DNA of 31,610 nt from a virus: the IMG/VR virus record IMGVR_UViG_3300030419_001559, positions 1-31,610 of that record. One strand, written 5' to 3'. Below are positions 11,321 through 28,263 of the stretch, in pieces. The stretch's first letter is position 1. Each line of letters opens with the position of its first letter. A program made the translations under genes and the position numbers. The notes beneath the pieces are model-generated. The model was not told where the DNA came from and ran no database searches. It saw nothing but the letters and a program-made list of their open reading frames with translations.

Positions 11321-11594
11321 AAGATACGAGAAGCAGTTCGGTCCCAAGGCTGAGTGGGTACGAAGCCTAGACTGTCACACCTGTGGCAAGTGGGGCCCGA
11401 GTGACCCAGCCCACATGAGATCCCGTGGAGCCGGCGGAACGAGTGAACATCTGGTGCCCTTGTGTCGTGTGTGTCATATGAGGCAACACTCCAAAGGCAT
11501 CAAGACGTTCTTCAGGGAATACGGCGTGGACGATCACATGGCCTTGGCCAAAGAGTACCACGAGCGGTGGCTAGAAAGATCCCGACCTTCATAG
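11289..11594 (+). CDS. HNH endonuclease-like protein
   Basis: The product has up to 101 aa. The core CHTCGKWGPSDPAHM, GAGGTSEH and PLCRVCHMRQH contains two CxxC pairs and the paired histidines of an HNH/beta-beta-alpha-metal fold (SEHLVPLCRVCH as the HNH core). Small HNH proteins of this type nick or cleave DNA; in phages they act in packaging, recombination or as homing enzymes. The start is uncertain: GTG at 11289 overlaps the upstream gene, and TTG at 11298 is an alternative. Its stop codon overlaps the tmRNA-like 3' end on the other strand. Confidence 0.7.
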   Translation: MWLLARSSRTKRYEKQFGPKAEWVRSLDCHTCGKWGPSDPAHMRSRGAGGTSEHLVPLCRVCHMRQHSKGIKTFFREYGVDDHMALAKEYHERWLERSRPS

Positions 11595-11625
11595 TGGAGG
11601 CGGCGGGAATCGAACCCGCGTCCGC
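11592..11625 (-). other. tmRNA (ssrA) 3'-end-like sequence, possible attachment site
   Basis: Read on the minus strand, this stretch has GCGGAC, then a perfect five-base-pair T stem (GCGGG / CCCGC) with the T loop TTCGATT. It continues CGCCTCC-A-CTA, matching the usual tmRNA acceptor 3' end (CCTCC-A-CCA) except for one base. I see no matching GGAGGCG 5' acceptor strand and no tag-peptide module; the upstream minus-strand sequence is coding. It is therefore a fragment, not a working tmRNA. Phage integrases commonly use the 3' end of ssrA as attB, and the phage attP then carries such a copy. No integrase gene lies in this window. Confidence 0.55.
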
Positions 11626-11685
11626 TCCGTGCTCACAAGAGCCTTGCGAAGCGTCAAGACCTGTCACCCCCGTAACACCCACAAC

Positions 11686-12404: not shown

Positions 12405-13106
12405 TTAATTCTCCTCTGCTTTCGCATCGTCGAGTTTAAGTGCCAAGGTTCCTACATCCTTCAACTGCTTGATCAGTCGGGCCGCGCCCTCTTGATCTTT
12501 CTTCTTAATGGCCGTCCTAATGAGGGTTGCCGTCTCCTCGTCCGGGCTCCAACCACGCTCGTGCAAGTCATTGGCCGTAGCCCTGAGGTCTGCAACGAAA
12601 TCAAGCTCAGGCTCGTCCACCACCTCAACCACCGGCTTCGGGGTCTCCTTGGGCTTGGACTTCCGCTTCGGCTTCTTGGGCGGCTCAGGGGCCTCCTCAC
12701 GAGGGAGTGCGTCCCCACTATATAAATAGTTAGCGAGACCGTAAAGACTGAAGCACTTCACGAGGCACCTTTGCTTCGCGTCACTGATTGCCCTGCTATC
12801 AGGGTTAGCCACGGACTTCATCTTGTAGTCCATCACTGGAAGCCACATGTCACGACTTACGTCTCCAATCTTCACGGAACAAGTGACCATTGCTGTGCCG
12901 CCGTTGTAGTACGTCACATCCCTCGTGACCCCTTGGTCGTCCGTCGTTCCATGCCACTTGACCTGTAGGTCTGGATAGTGCTCCATCATCAGTCGCCAAG
13001 CGTGCGACCAACTCAGGTAGGTCAGGCCCATCTTTTCTTCGGTGTACTCCGAACAGTCAATCTTGGACAAGGTTGCCCAAATCTCTCCTGCCGTTGGCTT
13101 AGCCAT
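12405..13106 (-). CDS. Sak/DUF1071-type single-strand annealing protein
   Basis: I place the start at the ATG at 13106 (MAKPTAGEIW), with GAGGAGA seven bases upstream, giving 233 aa; the longer open frame overlaps the nuclease. Residues about 20-135 match my memory of the DUF1071 (SSAP_Sak, Rad52 superfamily) pattern: LTYLSWSHAWRLMMEHYP, YYNGGTAMVTCSVKI, LPVMDYK, then ISDAKQRCLVKCFSLYGLANYLYSGDALP. The protein anneals complementary strands during phage recombination. A Pro/Lys linker separates the core from a helical C-terminal region. It lies between the nuclease and the SSB-tailed gene, as in other phage recombination operons. Confidence 0.85.
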   Translation of the reverse strand: MAKPTAGEIWATLSKIDCSEYTEEKMGLTYLSWSHAWRLMMEHYPDLQVKWHGTTDDQGVTRDVTYYNGGTAMVTCSVKIGDVSRDMWLPVMDYKMKSVANPDSRAISDAKQRCLVKCFSLYGLANYLYSGDALPREEAPEPPKKPKRKSKPKETPKPVVEVVDEPELDFVADLRATANDLHERGWSPDEETATLIRTAIKKKDQEGAARLIKQLKDVGTLALKLDDAKAEEN

Positions 13107-14725: not shown

Positions 14726-15169
14726 ATGAAGCGCAAGTCCATCGACAAAGATCCGTGCTGTGTTACGATACTTGGTGAGCCGGCATCGAAAGCCAACTCC
14801 CGCAGGCTTGTCACGGTTAAGGGCCGCGCCATGTTCATTAAGTCAAAGAAAGCTCTTAACTACAAGAGGGGCTTTGAGTTACAGTGCCCCGTTCGTGAGC
14901 CTTTGTACGAAAAGGGACAGGATCTGGCCGTAGCTATGAAGATCTACTATAAAACTAGAAGACCAGATCTTGATGAGTCTCTAATATTAGATTTACTAGA
15001 GGGTTTTGTTTATCAGAATGATAGACAAGTAAAGCTAAAGCATATTGTTTGGGGTTTAGATAAAGAGAACCCTAGAACAGAGATAGTAATATCTACTATA
15101 GACAATAAGGATTTGGTGATTAGTACTTTGTTGGAGAGGATTGGAGGAGAGGATGGAAGTATCAAGTGA
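14726..15169 (+). CDS. rusA: RusA-like Holliday junction resolvase
   Basis: The 147-aa product has the RusA plan: an N-terminal strand and basic stretch (LGEPASKANSRRLV), then RRPDLDESLILDLLEGFVYQNDRQV carrying the catalytic acids (DxD plus a downstream D) and conserved QNDRQV, then a C-terminal strand region. It resolves four-way junctions made by the recombination genes on the opposite strand. GAGGAAAA lies about 20 bases upstream of the ATG, a weak site. From about 14936 onward the gene is much richer in A+T than its first half and its neighbours. It overlaps the primase-helicase start by 17 bases. Confidence 0.85.
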   Translation: MKRKSIDKDPCCVTILGEPASKANSRRLVTVKGRAMFIKSKKALNYKRGFELQCPVREPLYEKGQDLAVAMKIYYKTRRPDLDESLILDLLEGFVYQNDRQVKLKHIVWGLDKENPRTEIVISTIDNKDLVISTLLERIGGEDGSIK

Positions 15170-16907
15170 GATAAAGGCTTTAGGGTCTAGTCTCAGGATT
15201 GGTCAGCACAAGAGGGTATGCCCTGAGTGCAAGGGCACCCGAACAAAGAACAAGAAAGACAGGCCACTTTCCATCAAGGTGGACCCTGACGGTGTGCAGT
15301 ACAGGTGCCATCACTGTGGCACGGAGGGGGGATGGATGCACAAAGGAAAAACACACGATTTCAGGTACGTCGATACGGAGCCAATCATGAAGACAAAGCC
15401 GATTGTTGTAGAGAAGAAGAAGGTCAACGAGTCTGCGTTGGCATACCTCAGGAACAGGAAGATCTCAGACGAAGTTATTGAGAAGTACACGGTGTGCTCT
15501 GAGTACAGGTTCAATGGCACGGTCACCCCTGCTGTTGGTTTCCTGTACACCAAGGGCGACACGATTGAAGCCGCGAAGTGGAGGAGCGCGGACGACAAGA
15601 AGCAGTTTTCGCAAGAAAATGTTTGTACAGATTTTTTCAATCTGGACAGCTACGTTGACGGCAATGACATCCTGATCTGCGAAGGCGAGATGGACGCCTT
15701 GGCTTGGATGAGTGCCGACATTCCTGACAACCTGACCGTCCTGTCTATCCCAAACGGCGCACCGGCTGGGGTCAAGGATGGCAAGATCGACCCAAAAGAC
15801 GACAAGAAGTTTGGGTACATCTGGAGGGCAGAGAAGCAACTAGCCACAGCGGGGCGAATCCTTCTCAATACGGACAACGATGGCCCCGGCAACGCCTTGC
15901 AAAAGGAGATTATACGCCGCATTGGTGGGTCTAAAGCGTGGGTCATATCTCTAGGTGAGTACAAGGATGCGGCAGAAGCGAACGCTGACGCAGGCCCATC
16001 GTTTCTGGAGAATGCATTAGACAGCGCGACCGTGCTACCGATCATCGGTGTGCATACGGTGAACGACATCTTCGATTCGGTCGTGAACCTGTACGAACAG
16101 GGACAGGTCAAAGGTGCTTCCACTGGCCTCACCTCCTTGGATGAGTACATGCAAGTACCCGCCGGCATGCTCACGATAGTCACGGGGTTTCCTGCCTCTG
16201 GTAAGTCGGATCTCATTGATCAGATCTGTGTGAACCTGGCCAAGAGTCATAACTGGAAAACTGTTTTTTGTAGCTTTGAGAAGCCTGCCAACTACCACTA
16301 TGCGCAGCTCGCACAAAAGGTGGTGGACCGCCCATTCTTCATGGATAAGAGCGTCAACCGAATGACGCAGGAAGAAATGGAATTCGCTAGGCAAGTCATG
16401 GAAGACTCCTTCGTGTTCATGGATAGCCGTGGTGGTGGGGCTATGGACATTGATAGCATCCTCAGCAAGGCCTCTGAATGCGTTCTAAGGTACGGCAGTC
16501 GCATACTGGTCATCGACCCCTACAACTACATCGACATGGGCTCAGGGCGCGAGACAGACGCCATCAGCCAGATGCTCACAAAGATTCAGCAGTGGGCCAA
16601 GAACCACGATGCCCACGTTTTTTTTATTGCCCACCCAGCCAAACTCTCCAGTGAGCGCAGGAGTGGGAAGAAGGTTGTTGTTACCGGACTGGATATCAGC
16701 GGCTCCCACACATGGTTCAGTAAGGCCGACATCGGCCTCACGGTATGGAGGCACCCCAAGGACGAGGAGCCGCCTGAGGCTCATGTCTGGAAGGCTCGTT
16801 GGAATTGGGTCGGCAAAAACGGATCATGCCCACTACACTACGATGTGAACAGTGGTCGGTGGCACGACTTCAGCCCCGCCTTCGACGACTACGATTGGGA
16901 TTTTTAA
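15153..16907 (+). CDS. T7 gp4-like primase-helicase
   Basis: I choose the ATG at 15153 (MEVSSEIKAL), preceded by GGAGGAG, over one four codons upstream; 584 aa. An N-terminal zinc ribbon (CPEC at about residue 24, CHHC at about 52) reads primer sites. A TOPRIM segment follows (ILICEGEMDALAWM, about 171-184; later LLNTDNDGPG). The C-terminal RecA-like helicase has Walker A GFPASGKSD (about 347) and Walker B RILVIDPYNYID (about 450), with an IAHPAK motif after it. The layout is that of ring-shaped replicative primase-helicases at the phage fork. Confidence 0.92.
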   Translation: MEVSSEIKALGSSLRIGQHKRVCPECKGTRTKNKKDRPLSIKVDPDGVQYRCHHCGTEGGWMHKGKTHDFRYVDTEPIMKTKPIVVEKKKVNESALAYLRNRKISDEVIEKYTVCSEYRFNGTVTPAVGFLYTKGDTIEAAKWRSADDKKQFSQENVCTDFFNLDSYVDGNDILICEGEMDALAWMSADIPDNLTVLSIPNGAPAGVKDGKIDPKDDKKFGYIWRAEKQLATAGRILLNTDNDGPGNALQKEIIRRIGGSKAWVISLGEYKDAAEANADAGPSFLENALDSATVLPIIGVHTVNDIFDSVVNLYEQGQVKGASTGLTSLDEYMQVPAGMLTIVTGFPASGKSDLIDQICVNLAKSHNWKTVFCSFEKPANYHYAQLAQKVVDRPFFMDKSVNRMTQEEMEFARQVMEDSFVFMDSRGGGAMDIDSILSKASECVLRYGSRILVIDPYNYIDMGSGRETDAISQMLTKIQQWAKNHDAHVFFIAHPAKLSSERRSGKKVVVTGLDISGSHTWFSKADIGLTVWRHPKDEEPPEAHVWKARWNWVGKNGSCPLHYDVNSGRWHDFSPAFDDYDWDF

Positions 16908-18081: not shown

Positions 18082-18110
18082 TTGACTAGCCGTGCACCAA
18101 TCAATATTAT
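18082..18110 (+). promoter_or_regulatory. Strong sigma70-type promoter of the small RNA
   Basis: TTGACT, exactly 17 bases, TATTAT: five of six consensus bases in each box with ideal spacing. It points away from the surrounding minus-strand genes. Transcription should begin near the A at 18118. Confidence 0.75.
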
Positions 18111-18117
18111 TGGTACC

Positions 18118-18228
18118 ATGCTACGATCCTCCTCTCTCGTAGTGTGTGTGCAAAAAGAGAACGATTCCTCCTCGTTCCGCCCCTTGGCTAGTTAGTCAGG
18201 CTCCGACTCGCTACCCAAGGGGTTTTTT
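18118..18228 (+). ncRNA. Candidate small RNA with two anti-Shine-Dalgarno loops
   Basis: About 111 nt between a near-consensus promoter and an intrinsic terminator. Hairpin 1 (arms CTACGA 18121-18126 and TCGTAG 18137-18142) has the loop TCCTCCTCTC and extends by four more pairs, two of them G-U, which form only in this strand's RNA. Hairpin 2 (GAACGA 18159-18164, TCGTTC 18172-18177) has the loop TTCCTCC. Both loops therefore show CCUCC, complementary to the GGAGG sites before most genes here. Hairpin 3 is the terminator. An alternative reading is a leaderless 25-codon peptide from ATG 18118. It is antisense to the leader between two minus-strand genes. No known RNA family was recognised. Confidence 0.6.
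18180..18228 (+). terminator. Intrinsic terminator of the small RNA
   Basis: Arms CCCCTTGG (18180-18187) and CCAAGGGG (18215-18222), with inner pairs TAG/CTA and AGTC/GACT, are followed directly by TTTTTT. On the opposite strand no T run follows, so it acts on plus-strand transcripts. It overlaps the last codons of the YkgJ-like gene. Confidence 0.8.
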
Positions 18229-18740
18229 GTTTGCCCAAACAGAGACAATACGTCAGCCCACTCGTCGGCTGGGGCTTCGTAATGTTGCTTGGTTTCCGGG
18301 TCAAACTTGCAGATGGTGGGCAGAATCGAAGAGAGCCGTGCCTCGGGCTTGGCCAACATGATCCTGTACCCATACCCCACAATGAAGCACGCACCCCCAT
18401 CTCCCACGACTTCATCGGCTTTTTTGTTAAGCCGCCTAGACTCTCTCCAGTCCTGCGTGGAGTCGGTGTCGGTGTAGAGAACTAAACCAGTACCCAAGCC
18501 GTCGTTATGGTTTTCGGTAACGGCCACAGCGCCCACCCTATCCGGCCTGTCGTCGATGGTCCCGGCACCATTTAACCAGTCACAAGAAAAGCGTGCGCAT
18601 TCGTAGGGTCGCTTGTCGTAGATGCCACACCCGTCATCGGTCAAGTGCTCACACCGGACCCCGGCAGGCTTGTTCAACTCGTGGACATAAAGTGCTGTGC
18701 AACAAGATGTGCATGGGCCACAACTGCGAAACCTGCTCAT
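18192..18740 (-). CDS. YkgJ-family zinc/iron-chelating protein
   Basis: The 182-aa product has, in its first 55 residues, the Cys pattern of the YkgJ/UPF0153 family: CGPCTSCC, then CEHLTDDGCGIYDKRPYECARFSCDW. The family is thought to bind zinc or an iron-sulphur cluster; the biochemical role is unknown. The rest has a GYGYRIMLAKPEARL core. The start overlaps the small coiled-coil gene upstream (ATGA). Its last bases form part of the opposed terminator. Confidence 0.75.
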   Translation of the reverse strand: MSRFRSCGPCTSCCTALYVHELNKPAGVRCEHLTDDGCGIYDKRPYECARFSCDWLNGAGTIDDRPDRVGAVAVTENHNDGLGTGLVLYTDTDSTQDWRESRRLNKKADEVVGDGGACFIVGYGYRIMLAKPEARLSSILPTICKFDPETKQHYEAPADEWADVLSLFGQTKNPLGSESEPD

Positions 18741-19845: not shown

Positions 19846-21105
19846 TTAGATTTTTACTACGGTGCCAAACAGCCTCGACGATCCGTTGTAAGTGTACGCT
19901 GGCGTTTCACATGTGGTCGCCCACAGAACAGGGTATGGTGGGCGCTTACAACTCACCGAACCAAAGCCGTCTGTGAAGTACACGAGAGCGCTAACATCTT
20001 TCTCTTTGCGGTTGTCTTTAATCCAATTGAAGATTGGAGTAAATGACGTACCGCCGCCCCCATGAACGTTCAGTTCCATGCACTCGGCACCCCTGCCGTT
20101 CTTGAGGTTGTACTCCCACCACGGGGTCCCAGTCTCGGGATTTATGTGAACGCGACTATCCACATAAGCAACCATGATCTTACTTATTCTGAGTCGCTTG
20201 GCTGTGACAACCATGGTCTGACGAGCCTTGTCAAAGTCATCCAGTCCCATTGATGCAGACGAATCGAACACACAGTAGAGTGTCTCGGCCCGCTTCTCGG
20301 CTGTTGGGATAAATATATCTTGGGACATCCATCTTTTATTGGGCCGCTTGAAGCTCCGGTAGCTCTTGACGCTCTTGGCCAACCACTTCTTCAGAATACT
20401 CAGGGATCGGGCGTCTCCGTAGTTACTCTCCTTGACCTTGGTAACCATGTCGCCGTCACCCAACCCCATCGCCCTCTCTTGAAGAGCGGCCTCCTCGACG
20501 CGCTCTAGAATTTGCTGTTCCAGTTCTGCCAACTCCTCCGGGGTGCCGTCGCACTCAGGCGCGTCCAGAATCTCACCAATGCAGTCCCCGTTATCCCCGG
20601 AGCCGTCATTCTCCCCCGGCTCTGTCCCGTCGCCACCGTTCTCCTCCTCCTCGGGGGGTTGCCAACCCTCGGCCAGAAGAATCTTGCACACCCGTTCGAC
20701 TGACCCGTCATAATTTTTATTCAGAACCTTGTGGTCCTCCGGCCACCGAATCCTGTTTTCGGGCAGAACAAAGTCTTTGTCTGGGCCATAATTTGCGCTT
20801 TGTATGATCCACTCGTTGATCACCATGTCGCATGCCACGTTCCACAGCTTTGGGTGGAAGTCTCCACGCCTTGTGTGGTGCAGGTTCGACACATGAAGCG
20901 CTTCATGGATGATGACACCCGCGACCTCACGATCACTCAGCGGGGCAACCCACTCCGGGTTGGCTAAGATTCTTGTCCCGTCAGTGGCCATGGTCCCTTC
21001 GTTCATCTCCTCAATAGGGAGACCACCCATCATGGTGTAGGCCCCAGGTGCGGCAGTAAATAATTTTGCCCTGATTTTCTTGATTCTTTGGACAGTACTG
21101 GACAT
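19846..21105 (-). CDS. Zincin-VWA protein (DUF2201-like metallopeptidase)
   Basis: The 419-aa product starts at an ATG with GGAGGGGGT upstream. The N-terminal half carries HEALHVSNLHH (about residues 67-77), the HExxHxxxxxH-type zinc site of a metallopeptidase, in the DUF2201 style. An acidic Glu/Gly/Asp linker (about 155-185) follows. The C-terminal half is a von Willebrand A-type domain with a full MIDAS: DSSAS (about 281-285), a Thr in GGGGTSF, and FTDG. MoxR ATPases act together with VWA proteins as chaperone-like remodelling pairs. The ATPase two genes upstream is thus its likely partner. Confidence 0.85.
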   Translation of the reverse strand: MSSTVQRIKKIRAKLFTAAPGAYTMMGGLPIEEMNEGTMATDGTRILANPEWVAPLSDREVAGVIIHEALHVSNLHHTRRGDFHPKLWNVACDMVINEWIIQSANYGPDKDFVLPENRIRWPEDHKVLNKNYDGSVERVCKILLAEGWQPPEEEENGGDGTEPGENDGSGDNGDCIGEILDAPECDGTPEELAELEQQILERVEEAALQERAMGLGDGDMVTKVKESNYGDARSLSILKKWLAKSVKSYRSFKRPNKRWMSQDIFIPTAEKRAETLYCVFDSSASMGLDDFDKARQTMVVTAKRLRISKIMVAYVDSRVHINPETGTPWWEYNLKNGRGAECMELNVHGGGGTSFTPIFNWIKDNRKEKDVSALVYFTDGFGSVSCKRPPYPVLWATTCETPAYTYNGSSRLFGTVVKI

Positions 21106-21114
21106 ACCCCCTCC

Positions 21115-22122
21115 TTAGTTAAGCCAATCGTCTAGTAGATCTGTCTTGGATTTACGAGCCACCTCAGCGATGTCCTGCAATGTCTCCTTGACCTCCTTCC
21201 TCATGGTGTCATCCTCTCCACTCAAGGCCTTACGAGCATCGGACAGGGACCCACCGCCAATCGCTTCGATCTTGCTCATAAGGTCGCGTGTCATGGACGC
21301 CGCTTGAGTAAGCTCTGCGTTCTCAAGAGCCGTGGTCCACTGCTCTGCCCTCTCGGCGGCGGCTTGGAGTTTTTGCCAACCCTTGGTCTTTGGCAACGAG
21401 TTCCCCGCCCGGCTGTCACCCTCATTGAAAACATATCCGTCGATACCGGCAATGATACCGTTGACCTCATCCATGATACTCTCGGCAACACTATTTACCG
21501 CATTGGATATTTTTCTTTCGGCCTCCAGCTTGGCGTCCGCTTTCATTCTCTCCATCACCTCTTCGGGATGGGATATGCGGATGTCACCCTCAATCCCACG
21601 GATGTCGTTGAGCGGTTTGATCCAGACCTTCCAACTGTAGCATTTGCGTAGCTCAGCCACGGGGATGAAGTAGTCTTGAAACCTGCCGTTGAGTTCAGTC
21701 AACGCCTCCGCTCTCATCCTGTCCCACTGGCTGAATAGTTCAGTCTCAAGAATCCGCTCCCACTCTTGGCGGAAACTGATCATCTTAGACTCATACTCAG
21801 ATATTTTACTAGCATCCAGCAGGTAGTCGGCGTTACTGATGCGCCCACCGTAATCGTTGTTCCTTGTGGTTGACCAAGGGACCGTCACGGACTTCATGTA
21901 GTTCCGCGCTCGTGCGACAACGGCGTTCAGCTTGCGCTGAACCACTTGGTCCATCACGACGACTTGGCCCCTAGTCTTGCTCTCCAGTATGCCCGTGGCC
22001 TCTGCACCTCCACGCGCAACATCTCTATCCGACTTGATCCCACCTCTCTGTGTCACCTCTAGACTTGTGAGACAAAAGGCCTTCCAGAGTTCTTTGATGT
22101 TGTCATCCAGATTGTCCTGCAT
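21115..22122 (-). CDS. Helical partner protein of the MoxR/VWA module (DUF3150-like)
   Basis: I take the ATG at 22122 (MQDNLDDNIKELW), with AAGGAGGAG upstream; 335 aa. It is almost entirely helical and highly charged, with coiled-coil stretches (KISEYESKMISFRQEWERILETEL; AKLEAERKISNAVNSVAESI) and a central WKVWIKPLNDIRG segment. Its place between the MoxR ATPase and the VWA protein, and its overall look, match the DUF3150 proteins I remember from similar phage clusters; this assignment is from memory and moderate. It probably links ATPase and VWA subunits. Confidence 0.6.
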   Translation of the reverse strand: MQDNLDDNIKELWKAFCLTSLEVTQRGGIKSDRDVARGGAEATGILESKTRGQVVVMDQVVQRKLNAVVARARNYMKSVTVPWSTTRNNDYGGRISNADYLLDASKISEYESKMISFRQEWERILETELFSQWDRMRAEALTELNGRFQDYFIPVAELRKCYSWKVWIKPLNDIRGIEGDIRISHPEEVMERMKADAKLEAERKISNAVNSVAESIMDEVNGIIAGIDGYVFNEGDSRAGNSLPKTKGWQKLQAAAERAEQWTTALENAELTQAASMTRDLMSKIEAIGGGSLSDARKALSGEDDTMRKEVKETLQDIAEVARKSKTDLLDDWLN

Positions 22123-22139
22123 TGTTACTCCTCCTTGGT

Positions 22140-23291
22140 TTAGAAACGAAAGTCTGCGCAACGACTCATGTGGCGACCCCACTCCACCTCTGAAGTCACA
22201 TCCTTATTCACTGCCTGTGCCATGTGGGCGAAGGTTACCTCCAACTCTTCCCCAAACAATTTGATAAACGGGAACAATTTATTTACTTGCGCCGGATCGC
22301 CCTTGACTCGCTTCGACAGCATCGCGGTCATGGAGCAGAGCGTCTGCCTACCGTTGTGGCTTACATCGTTCCTGATCCGTTCGATCTCAGACATGTGTCC
22401 GTCAGGGTCGTTGATCATGGCGTCAATGTCATCCAACCTTTCCATCGCCTTGTGCATCGCATACAGTTCCGTGCTTGCTTGGACACCGATGAAGCCCTCG
22501 GCAATACCCCTACCTAGGTTTGTGTCTAGATCTACCAATCCCGCGAGCATCAGATCGCTGAGCCGCTTAGCCTGCCTCGCGCAATTGAACGGCTGTCCCT
22601 CCACGGTACCTTTGTGGTGTTGAGTGAACAGCCACTCGTCCCCAAACGCTTTGGTGCAAGACACAATGAGTGGATGAAGCTCGCCTGCGTGGTAATTCAG
22701 GAATGAGTTGGAATCATTGCTTACCTCAATGATACACGCCCTCGACACCAGATCGGATTGCAAGTCCACTGACCCTGCATTGTCCTCCACCCTGTTGCCT
22801 GTTGCCACGATGCGCATACCGTCCGGCTTGATCCACGCATCACCCAATCGGCCCTCGTTCACGATGGACGCGACCGACTTGAAGTGCTCCTCTTCCTTGG
22901 CAACCTCATCCAACAAAAGCGTATTGTGAATAAGATTTTTTGGACCCCAAGTGTGGTCAGCGCCCGCAAGGAATGATGCGGCGATGGTTTCGTAGACGGT
23001 GCCCTCGTCTCCCCGTGTGAAGTTGGGGAACATCACCTCCTCCTTACCCTTCGCACTGATGTTGATGAAGGTGTAGGTGGGCGACCCGTCATGTGGGCGA
23101 TCAACGCTACTGTCGATAGGCTCCTCGCCTGTCTCGTCAACAGCCCTGCGCCTCACGATCTCCTTGGCGATGTCGGTCTTGCCTGCTCCGTTCCGACCAA
23201 GCAGGAGCACCGCAACGTCCTCCTTCAAGAGCATCACCCCGGCCTCAGTGGCCTCCTCGGGGCTCAGCTGTATCCTTGAAGTGTTCTTCAT
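22140..23291 (-). CDS. MoxR/CbbQ-like AAA+ ATPase
   Basis: The start is at the ATG at 23291 (MKNTSRIQL) with GGAGGAG eight bases upstream; 383 aa. Walker A GRNGAGKTD (about residues 32-40), Walker B TLLLDEVAKEEEH (about 123), and sensor 1 IVATGNRVED (about 159) are present, with Arg residues (LVSRACIIEV) in the arginine-finger region. MoxR-type ATPases form rings that remodel or insert cofactors into partners together with VWA proteins, and both partner genes follow directly. Its leader has a copy of the dispersed palindrome. Confidence 0.85.
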   Translation of the reverse strand: MKNTSRIQLSPEEATEAGVMLLKEDVAVLLLGRNGAGKTDIAKEIVRRRAVDETGEEPIDSSVDRPHDGSPTYTFINISAKGKEEVMFPNFTRGDEGTVYETIAASFLAGADHTWGPKNLIHNTLLLDEVAKEEEHFKSVASIVNEGRLGDAWIKPDGMRIVATGNRVEDNAGSVDLQSDLVSRACIIEVSNDSNSFLNYHAGELHPLIVSCTKAFGDEWLFTQHHKGTVEGQPFNCARQAKRLSDLMLAGLVDLDTNLGRGIAEGFIGVQASTELYAMHKAMERLDDIDAMINDPDGHMSEIERIRNDVSHNGRQTLCSMTAMLSKRVKGDPAQVNKLFPFIKLFGEELEVTFAHMAQAVNKDVTSEVEWGRHMSRCADFRF

Positions 23292-23421
23292 TTCTACTCC
23301 TCCAGTAGAAGGGGGGGGGAAATTTTTTCCCCCTCCGTGGAACATCCTCTCAAACTTTCTACTAAATCTAAATCAAATTTATTTTTTGTCCAGTCTCCAT
23401 ATCCAGGGGGGTGAGATTTGA
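23292..23421 (-). promoter_or_regulatory. Leader of the MoxR gene with possible promoter
   Basis: No gene is seen in this A+T-rich stretch. On the minus strand TGGACA (23387-23392), 16 bases, TAGATT (23365-23370) could be a promoter, with a start near 23358. The palindrome at 23315-23333 would then lie in the untranslated leader, 25-43 bases into the RNA. A 67-aa frame across this stretch has no SD and is not supported. Confidence 0.4.
23315..23333. repeat. Dispersed palindrome, copy 1
   Basis: GGGGG-AAA-TTT-TTT-CCCCC with extra G on the left. It lies in the leader of the MoxR-like ATPase gene. Confidence 0.8.
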
Positions 23422-28234: not shown

Positions 28235-28263
28235 TTGACCTAACAAATCCCTAATGATATCAT
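28235..28263 (+). promoter_or_regulatory. Sigma70-type promoter of the small terminase gene
   Basis: TTGACC, 17 bases, TATCAT: five of six consensus bases in the -35 and four to five in the -10 box. The predicted transcription start (about 28269-28271) falls on the ATG of the gene. Confidence 0.65.

Follow-up and report, generated by a model that had tools for sequence, protein, structure and literature searches.

Promoter, hairpins and terminator at the locus

The locus is an intergenic stretch in a 31.6-kb IMG/VR virus record, which was analysed over its whole length and is called the window here. Both adjoining genes lie on the minus strand, neither matched a Pfam family, and the window has no plus-strand gene downstream. 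On the plus strand, a promoter, two hairpins with CCUCC-type loops and an intrinsic terminator with TTTTTT follow one another (Table 1). These elements, along with the opposite direction of the flanking genes, were found exactly where the earlier note had read them. The minus-strand gene at 18192-18740 shares its last codons with the terminator stem.

Table 1. Coordinates in the window of the features that make up the small-RNA locus
Feature	Position	Strand	Basis
Promoter: -35 TTGACT (18082-18087), 17-nt spacer, -10 TATTAT (18105-18110)	18082-18110	+	Motif read in sequence
Predicted small RNA, ~112 nt	18117-18228	+	Fold z and match to covariance model R1; start inferred from -10 box
Hairpin 1, in both clades	18117-18146	+	Compensatory changes
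Loop 1, UCCUCCUCUC	18127-18136	+	UCCUC invariant, 9/9 members
Hairpin 2, confined to the window's clade	18159-18177	+	Relatives' stems rewritten
Hairpin-2 loop UUCCUCC; CCUCC kept in relatives	18165-18171	+	Sequence comparison
Hairpin-2 complement, then CTTTTT: possible terminator of leftward transcription	18158-18178	-	Sequence
Intrinsic terminator of the small RNA: stem 18180-18222, TTTTTT 18223-18228	18180-18228	+	Terminator in every member

Folding with RNAfold gave -48.3 kcal/mol and a z of -6.7 for a transcript of 18113-18228, and a z of -4.1 for 18082-18228; in both cases, none of 200 shuffles was as good. Two hairpins in a row as strong as these, with CCUCC-type loops, occur at 0.017 per dinucleotide-shuffled window. 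The promoter is among the three best sigma-70 matches across 11-31 kb, a region in which the total number of such matches is not above chance. Strong divergent sigma-70-like promoters are found at 28170-28142 on the minus strand and 28235-28263 on the plus strand (11/12 and 10/12), with the leftward gene block on one side and, on the other, a gene that weakly matches a terminase small subunit.

Conservation in related phages

Two starting points, the primase/helicase gene (15153-16907) and the minus-strand gene next to the locus, which encodes 202 aa, led to a small group of uncultured phages. The small RNA was observed in all 11 phage records that hold the primase and its downstream flank, with nine distinct sequences among them (G000, G001, G002, G003, G006/G008, G007/G009, G011, G012 and L116); three more records break off within the primase and fall outside this count. 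Primase identity across the phages that bear the small RNA is 60-92%, and the RNA always lies downstream of the primase on the same strand. The promoter TTGAC-17-TANNNT is present in all nine distinct members, and a terminator in every one. Promoter, structure, loop, terminator, strand and synteny are conserved.

Three relatives, L006, L004 and L003 (primase 92, 75 and 74% identical), have the promoter, both hairpins and the terminator in the same place, and hairpin 1 of L006 retains CUACGAUCCUCCUCUCUCGUAG. L003, which belongs to G003, deviates in structure: it scores 18.5 bits (E 0.015), its stem is shifted by two and its loop is UCGUCCUC. R1, built from the window, L006 and L004, matched the window over its full length at 108.8 bits, the window being one of its training sequences, and recovered sister-clade RNAs (primase ~61%) just downstream of the primase at E-values of 4.7e-7 to 7.5e-5. 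These RNAs have TTGAC[T/G]-17-TANNTT, a strong terminator and a single hairpin, for example UACUAUAAGA-CCUCCUC-UCUUGUGGUA. Of the remaining members, that in G012 was spotted by eye and by its R2 score (G012 is in the R2 training set), while L116 came from a loop pattern search (R1 E 4.8e-6) and has a primase-sized reading frame of 588 aa just upstream of the small RNA. The proposal in the earlier note of a phage small RNA with an anti-Shine-Dalgarno (SD) loop is upheld by the relatives, which keep the promoter, hairpin 1, the CCUCCUC loop and the terminator; its second anti-SD loop is confirmed in the window's clade, whereas the sister phages have one anti-SD hairpin plus the terminator.

Selection on hairpin 1 was evaluated in an alignment of eight members, which was padded by hand with N and therefore leans towards structure. 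Standard pairs were found in 87.5% of its cells, and both-sided (compensatory) changes at four of nine pairs, a count that is inflated by the kinship of the aligned members. None of 500 shuffles matched this pairing together with the both-sided changes, and sliding the two strands by 1-3 columns lowered the pairing to 20-50%. In hairpin 1, 11 G-U pairs stand against one A-C pair, and the plus strand is therefore the functional RNA; the earlier note had fixed the strand by the G-U pairs of the window, and the argument holds in the relatives too. Loop 1 is the most constant part, with CUCCUC invariant in eight of eight members and UCCUC in nine of nine once L003 is added. As in RNAs of the ar14 type, the loop motif is conserved while the stems diverge. 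The hairpin-2 stems read GAACGA/UCGUUC in the window, GAUGCAC/GUGCGUC in L006 and AGAAGGA/UCCUUCU in L004, each with a CCUCC loop.

A coding explanation was rejected. The members share no conserved reading frame, and the differences between their lengths are not multiples of three. Hairpin 2, moreover, is missing from one clade and has been rewritten in the other, which likewise does not fit a coding sequence. Having its own promoter and terminator and no conserved reading frame, the locus has the marks of an independently transcribed, intrinsically terminated sRNA.

The loop pattern was also matched by the viral contigs L120, L111 and L113, which were discarded as members; what matched there were opposite-strand ribosome-binding sites and not hairpins. 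In L120 (10788-10826) and L111 (1640-1677), the putative ribosome-binding site CTACGAGAGAGGAGG precedes an ATG and is exactly complementary to the core of loop 1 together with the 3' arm of the same hairpin. This complementarity is probably chance plus SD enrichment, and the search pattern selected for it.

Beyond the group, no similar DNA was found in an annotated phage collection, and among 55 viral contigs with two spaced TCCTCC motifs the two-hairpin RNA was present only in a known relative. Searches with the primase or the neighbour protein against one genome per species, for 84,980 species, returned no prophage or host copy. By terminase, the relatives comprise Pelagibacter phages, one phage from seawater and one from a lake, the last with a gammaproteobacterium given as its host. 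When most of these four genomes were searched, the only match was a terminator-like one in L107 (E 0.007), which has no CCUCC loop.

Several other elements were observed in the window and its relatives. At 11592-11671 on its minus strand, the window has a tRNA-like domain of 80 nt, which reaches 58.7 bits against the Rfam tmRNA model (cut-off 47) and received no ARAGORN call. It has an acceptor stem, a T arm, a short helix with a 17-nt loop and the end CCACTA, and lacks the whole mRNA-like part. Hairpins resembling a T arm plus acceptor, such as GAGGTGcGTGGGTTCAACTCCCACCACCTCACA, and without an anticodon arm, are found in L093 (4684-4733, minus strand, in G002) and L095 (12011-12041, plus strand, in G001), and could be attachment sites or tRNA-mimic elements. 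In sister phages (L007, L008, L010 and L012-L015), the intergenic region just upstream of the homologue of the 202-aa gene has a conserved G/C-rich hairpin without a T run; in L007 this hairpin reads GGGGGTTGGGCGG...CCGCCAACCCCCC. On the minus strand, the stretch 19846-23345 of the window has a gene for a DUF2201/VWA-like metallopeptidase-type protein and, close by, an ATPase gene, annotated as MoxR-like in relatives; both genes have orthologues in several phages of the group.

Comparison with known RNAs

The small RNA matched no Rfam family at threshold. The sub-threshold matches with the same loop feature were ar14 (RF02344; 13.5 bits, E 1.5, cut-off 58.8) and CcsR1 (RF02791; 11.3 bits, E 2.6, cut-off 65.3). 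In the relatives, none of eight loci reached the gathering level, and four sister loci gave no match up to E 1. We consider it close to certain that this is a real, conserved and uncatalogued phage small RNA.

NfeR1, an ar14 member from alpha-rhizobia, consists of three hairpins whose CCUCCUCCC loops are ultraconserved on highly different stems, and silences ntrB through the anti-SD seeds in these loops (PMC10746234). The phage RNA is likewise a short hairpin sRNA with an anti-SD loop motif, divergent stems and an intrinsic terminator. However, ar14 is bacterial and has three CCUCCUCCC loops, the terminator loop included, whereas the phage-encoded RNA has one or two CCUCCUC(UC) loops, none of them in the terminator. 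The CcsR1-4 or cuckoo RNAs of Rhodobacter and its relatives also have CCUCCUCCC hairpin loops, and the weak match aligns the loops. The CcsR RNAs are processed by RNase E from a co-transcript with ccaF1 (DUF1127) (PMC10253847). The phage locus carries a promoter and a terminator of its own, and no Pfam family was matched by either adjoining gene. The phage RNA resembles ar14 and CcsR1 in design and not in descent, and belongs to neither by score or loop count.

More distant designs share the principle. UCCC-loop RNAs such as LhrC and staphylococcal RNAIII pair with G-rich translation-start sequences. In Xanthomonas, the C-rich loops of sX13 repress mRNAs with G-rich start regions (PMC3771888). 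These RNAs resemble the phage RNA in pairing of C-rich loops with G-rich translation starts, but they are chromosomal, with other motifs (4C/5C, UCCC) and another structure. The c4 RNA of phages P1 and P7 is, in a 2025 review of phage sRNAs (PMC12197685), a phage-encoded RNA whose target-complementary sequence, probably in loops, blocks a ribosome-binding site. It targets a single gene, ant, whereas the loop of the present RNA is a generic anti-SD sequence and its locus is intergenic. A keyword search of that review returned no RNA family like this one.

Leader complementarity and possible modes of action

With genes and starts called by a simple script whose start choice favours AGGAGG-like cores, loop 1 had a mean predicted duplex energy of -11.3 kcal/mol against the 43 predicted leaders of the window and -6.5 against coding sequence. 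A 16S-like tail gave -10.0 and -6.7, respectively; in G001, the generic tail (GAUCACCUCCUUUCU) suits the leaders slightly better than loop 1. The loop is thus predicted to suit leaders about as well as the ribosome tail, or better, and this complementarity is partly expected because any CCUCC sequence would have it. In three of six phages tested, few random sequences were as good as the loop's own 3' extension (16/300 in G000, 7/300 in G001 and 0/300 in G007); in G008, 111/300 were, and in the window's phage the extension ranks 14th of 64 pyrimidine extensions. These model energies weakly support a tuning of the extension to phage leaders.

No target was decisively ahead when leaders of orthologous genes were ranked across eight phages. 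The Sak annealing-protein gene (13106) had the best mean rank, 0.19, and was never worse than 0.29; we treat it as a lead, because strong SD sequences are conserved anyway. The leaders at 13106, 12402 and 24452, put forward earlier as near complements of loop 1, are all plausible, and among those with orthologues only 13106 is consistently high in all eight.

We infer that the small RNA is transcribed and that, in the cell, it pairs with its targets and represses them. It would be a stand-alone regulatory RNA of ~112 nt, starting at a host-type promoter and stopping at a terminator of its own. The CCUCC(UCUC) loop would face the solvent on hairpin 1, as well as on hairpin 2 in members that have it, and could pair with GAGAGGAGG-type SD sequences of mRNA leaders, keeping ribosomes from binding to selected mRNAs of phage and/or host. 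The RNA would then repress translation in trans, by the principle used by alphaproteobacterial sRNAs with anti-SD loops. We regard such an sRNA, masking SD sites in trans, as the most likely mechanism, with a probability of about 0.6.

The main rival is a sponge or decoy, in which the loops would catch something other than leaders, for instance a CCUCC-binding protein or a host sRNA whose seed is of the GGAGG type, and its removal would benefit the phage. The loop is short and generic enough for this, Caulobacter CrfA was first thought to pair with mRNAs and proved to be an sRNA sponge (PMC12559287), and the phage-sRNA review describes phage-encoded anti-sRNAs such as AgvB (PMC12197685). Against this reading, no candidate partner was identified, what is invariant in the loop is precisely the anti-SD core, and the phage's own leaders offer plenty of matching sites. 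We judge a sponge to be unlikely.

A purely transcriptional role is more doubtful still. The site separates the primase side from the leftward gene block. Read on the minus strand, the hairpin-2 complement runs into CTTTTTGC, and inspection of L006, L004 and L003 shows T runs after it there too. Judged from these letters, the complement may end leftward transcription while overlapping the small RNA, and hairpin 2 is therefore weaker as independent evidence. The locus could accordingly be read as a control element without RNA function, made of convergent terminators (and a promoter), with hairpins that terminate either strand. A leftward terminator, however, accounts for neither the kept CCUCC loop nor hairpin 1, which is flanked by no T run, bears compensatory changes and plus-strand G-U pairs, and keeps its invariant loop in phages without hairpin 2. 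The conserved promoter ahead of hairpin 1 would likewise be unexplained. It is similarly improbable that the RNA is a host-takeover factor that lowers host translation and spares phage mRNAs: the promoter is of host type and a generic anti-SD loop would encounter many host leaders, but the SD sequences of phage leaders are of the same type, which leads one to expect self-inhibition.

SD masking in trans remains our preferred reading. Small RNAs with anti-SD loops are already known from bacterial chromosomes, and neither Rfam nor the literature found describes a phage family that keeps one. The conserved family supplies sequences, a promoter, a fixed landmark downstream of the primase and clear loop mutations for testing. 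If masking of SD sites is correct, a single loop would give the phage simple control over many mRNAs, its own or those of the host. A more specific and tentative possibility is that this phage family retains a dedicated RNA version of the anti-SD function as a post-transcriptional timer, with a host-type promoter, that masks the extended GAGAGGAGG leaders of genes for replication and recombination, such as Sak. In that case, the SD sequences of these phages would be tuned both to the ribosome and to the small RNA.
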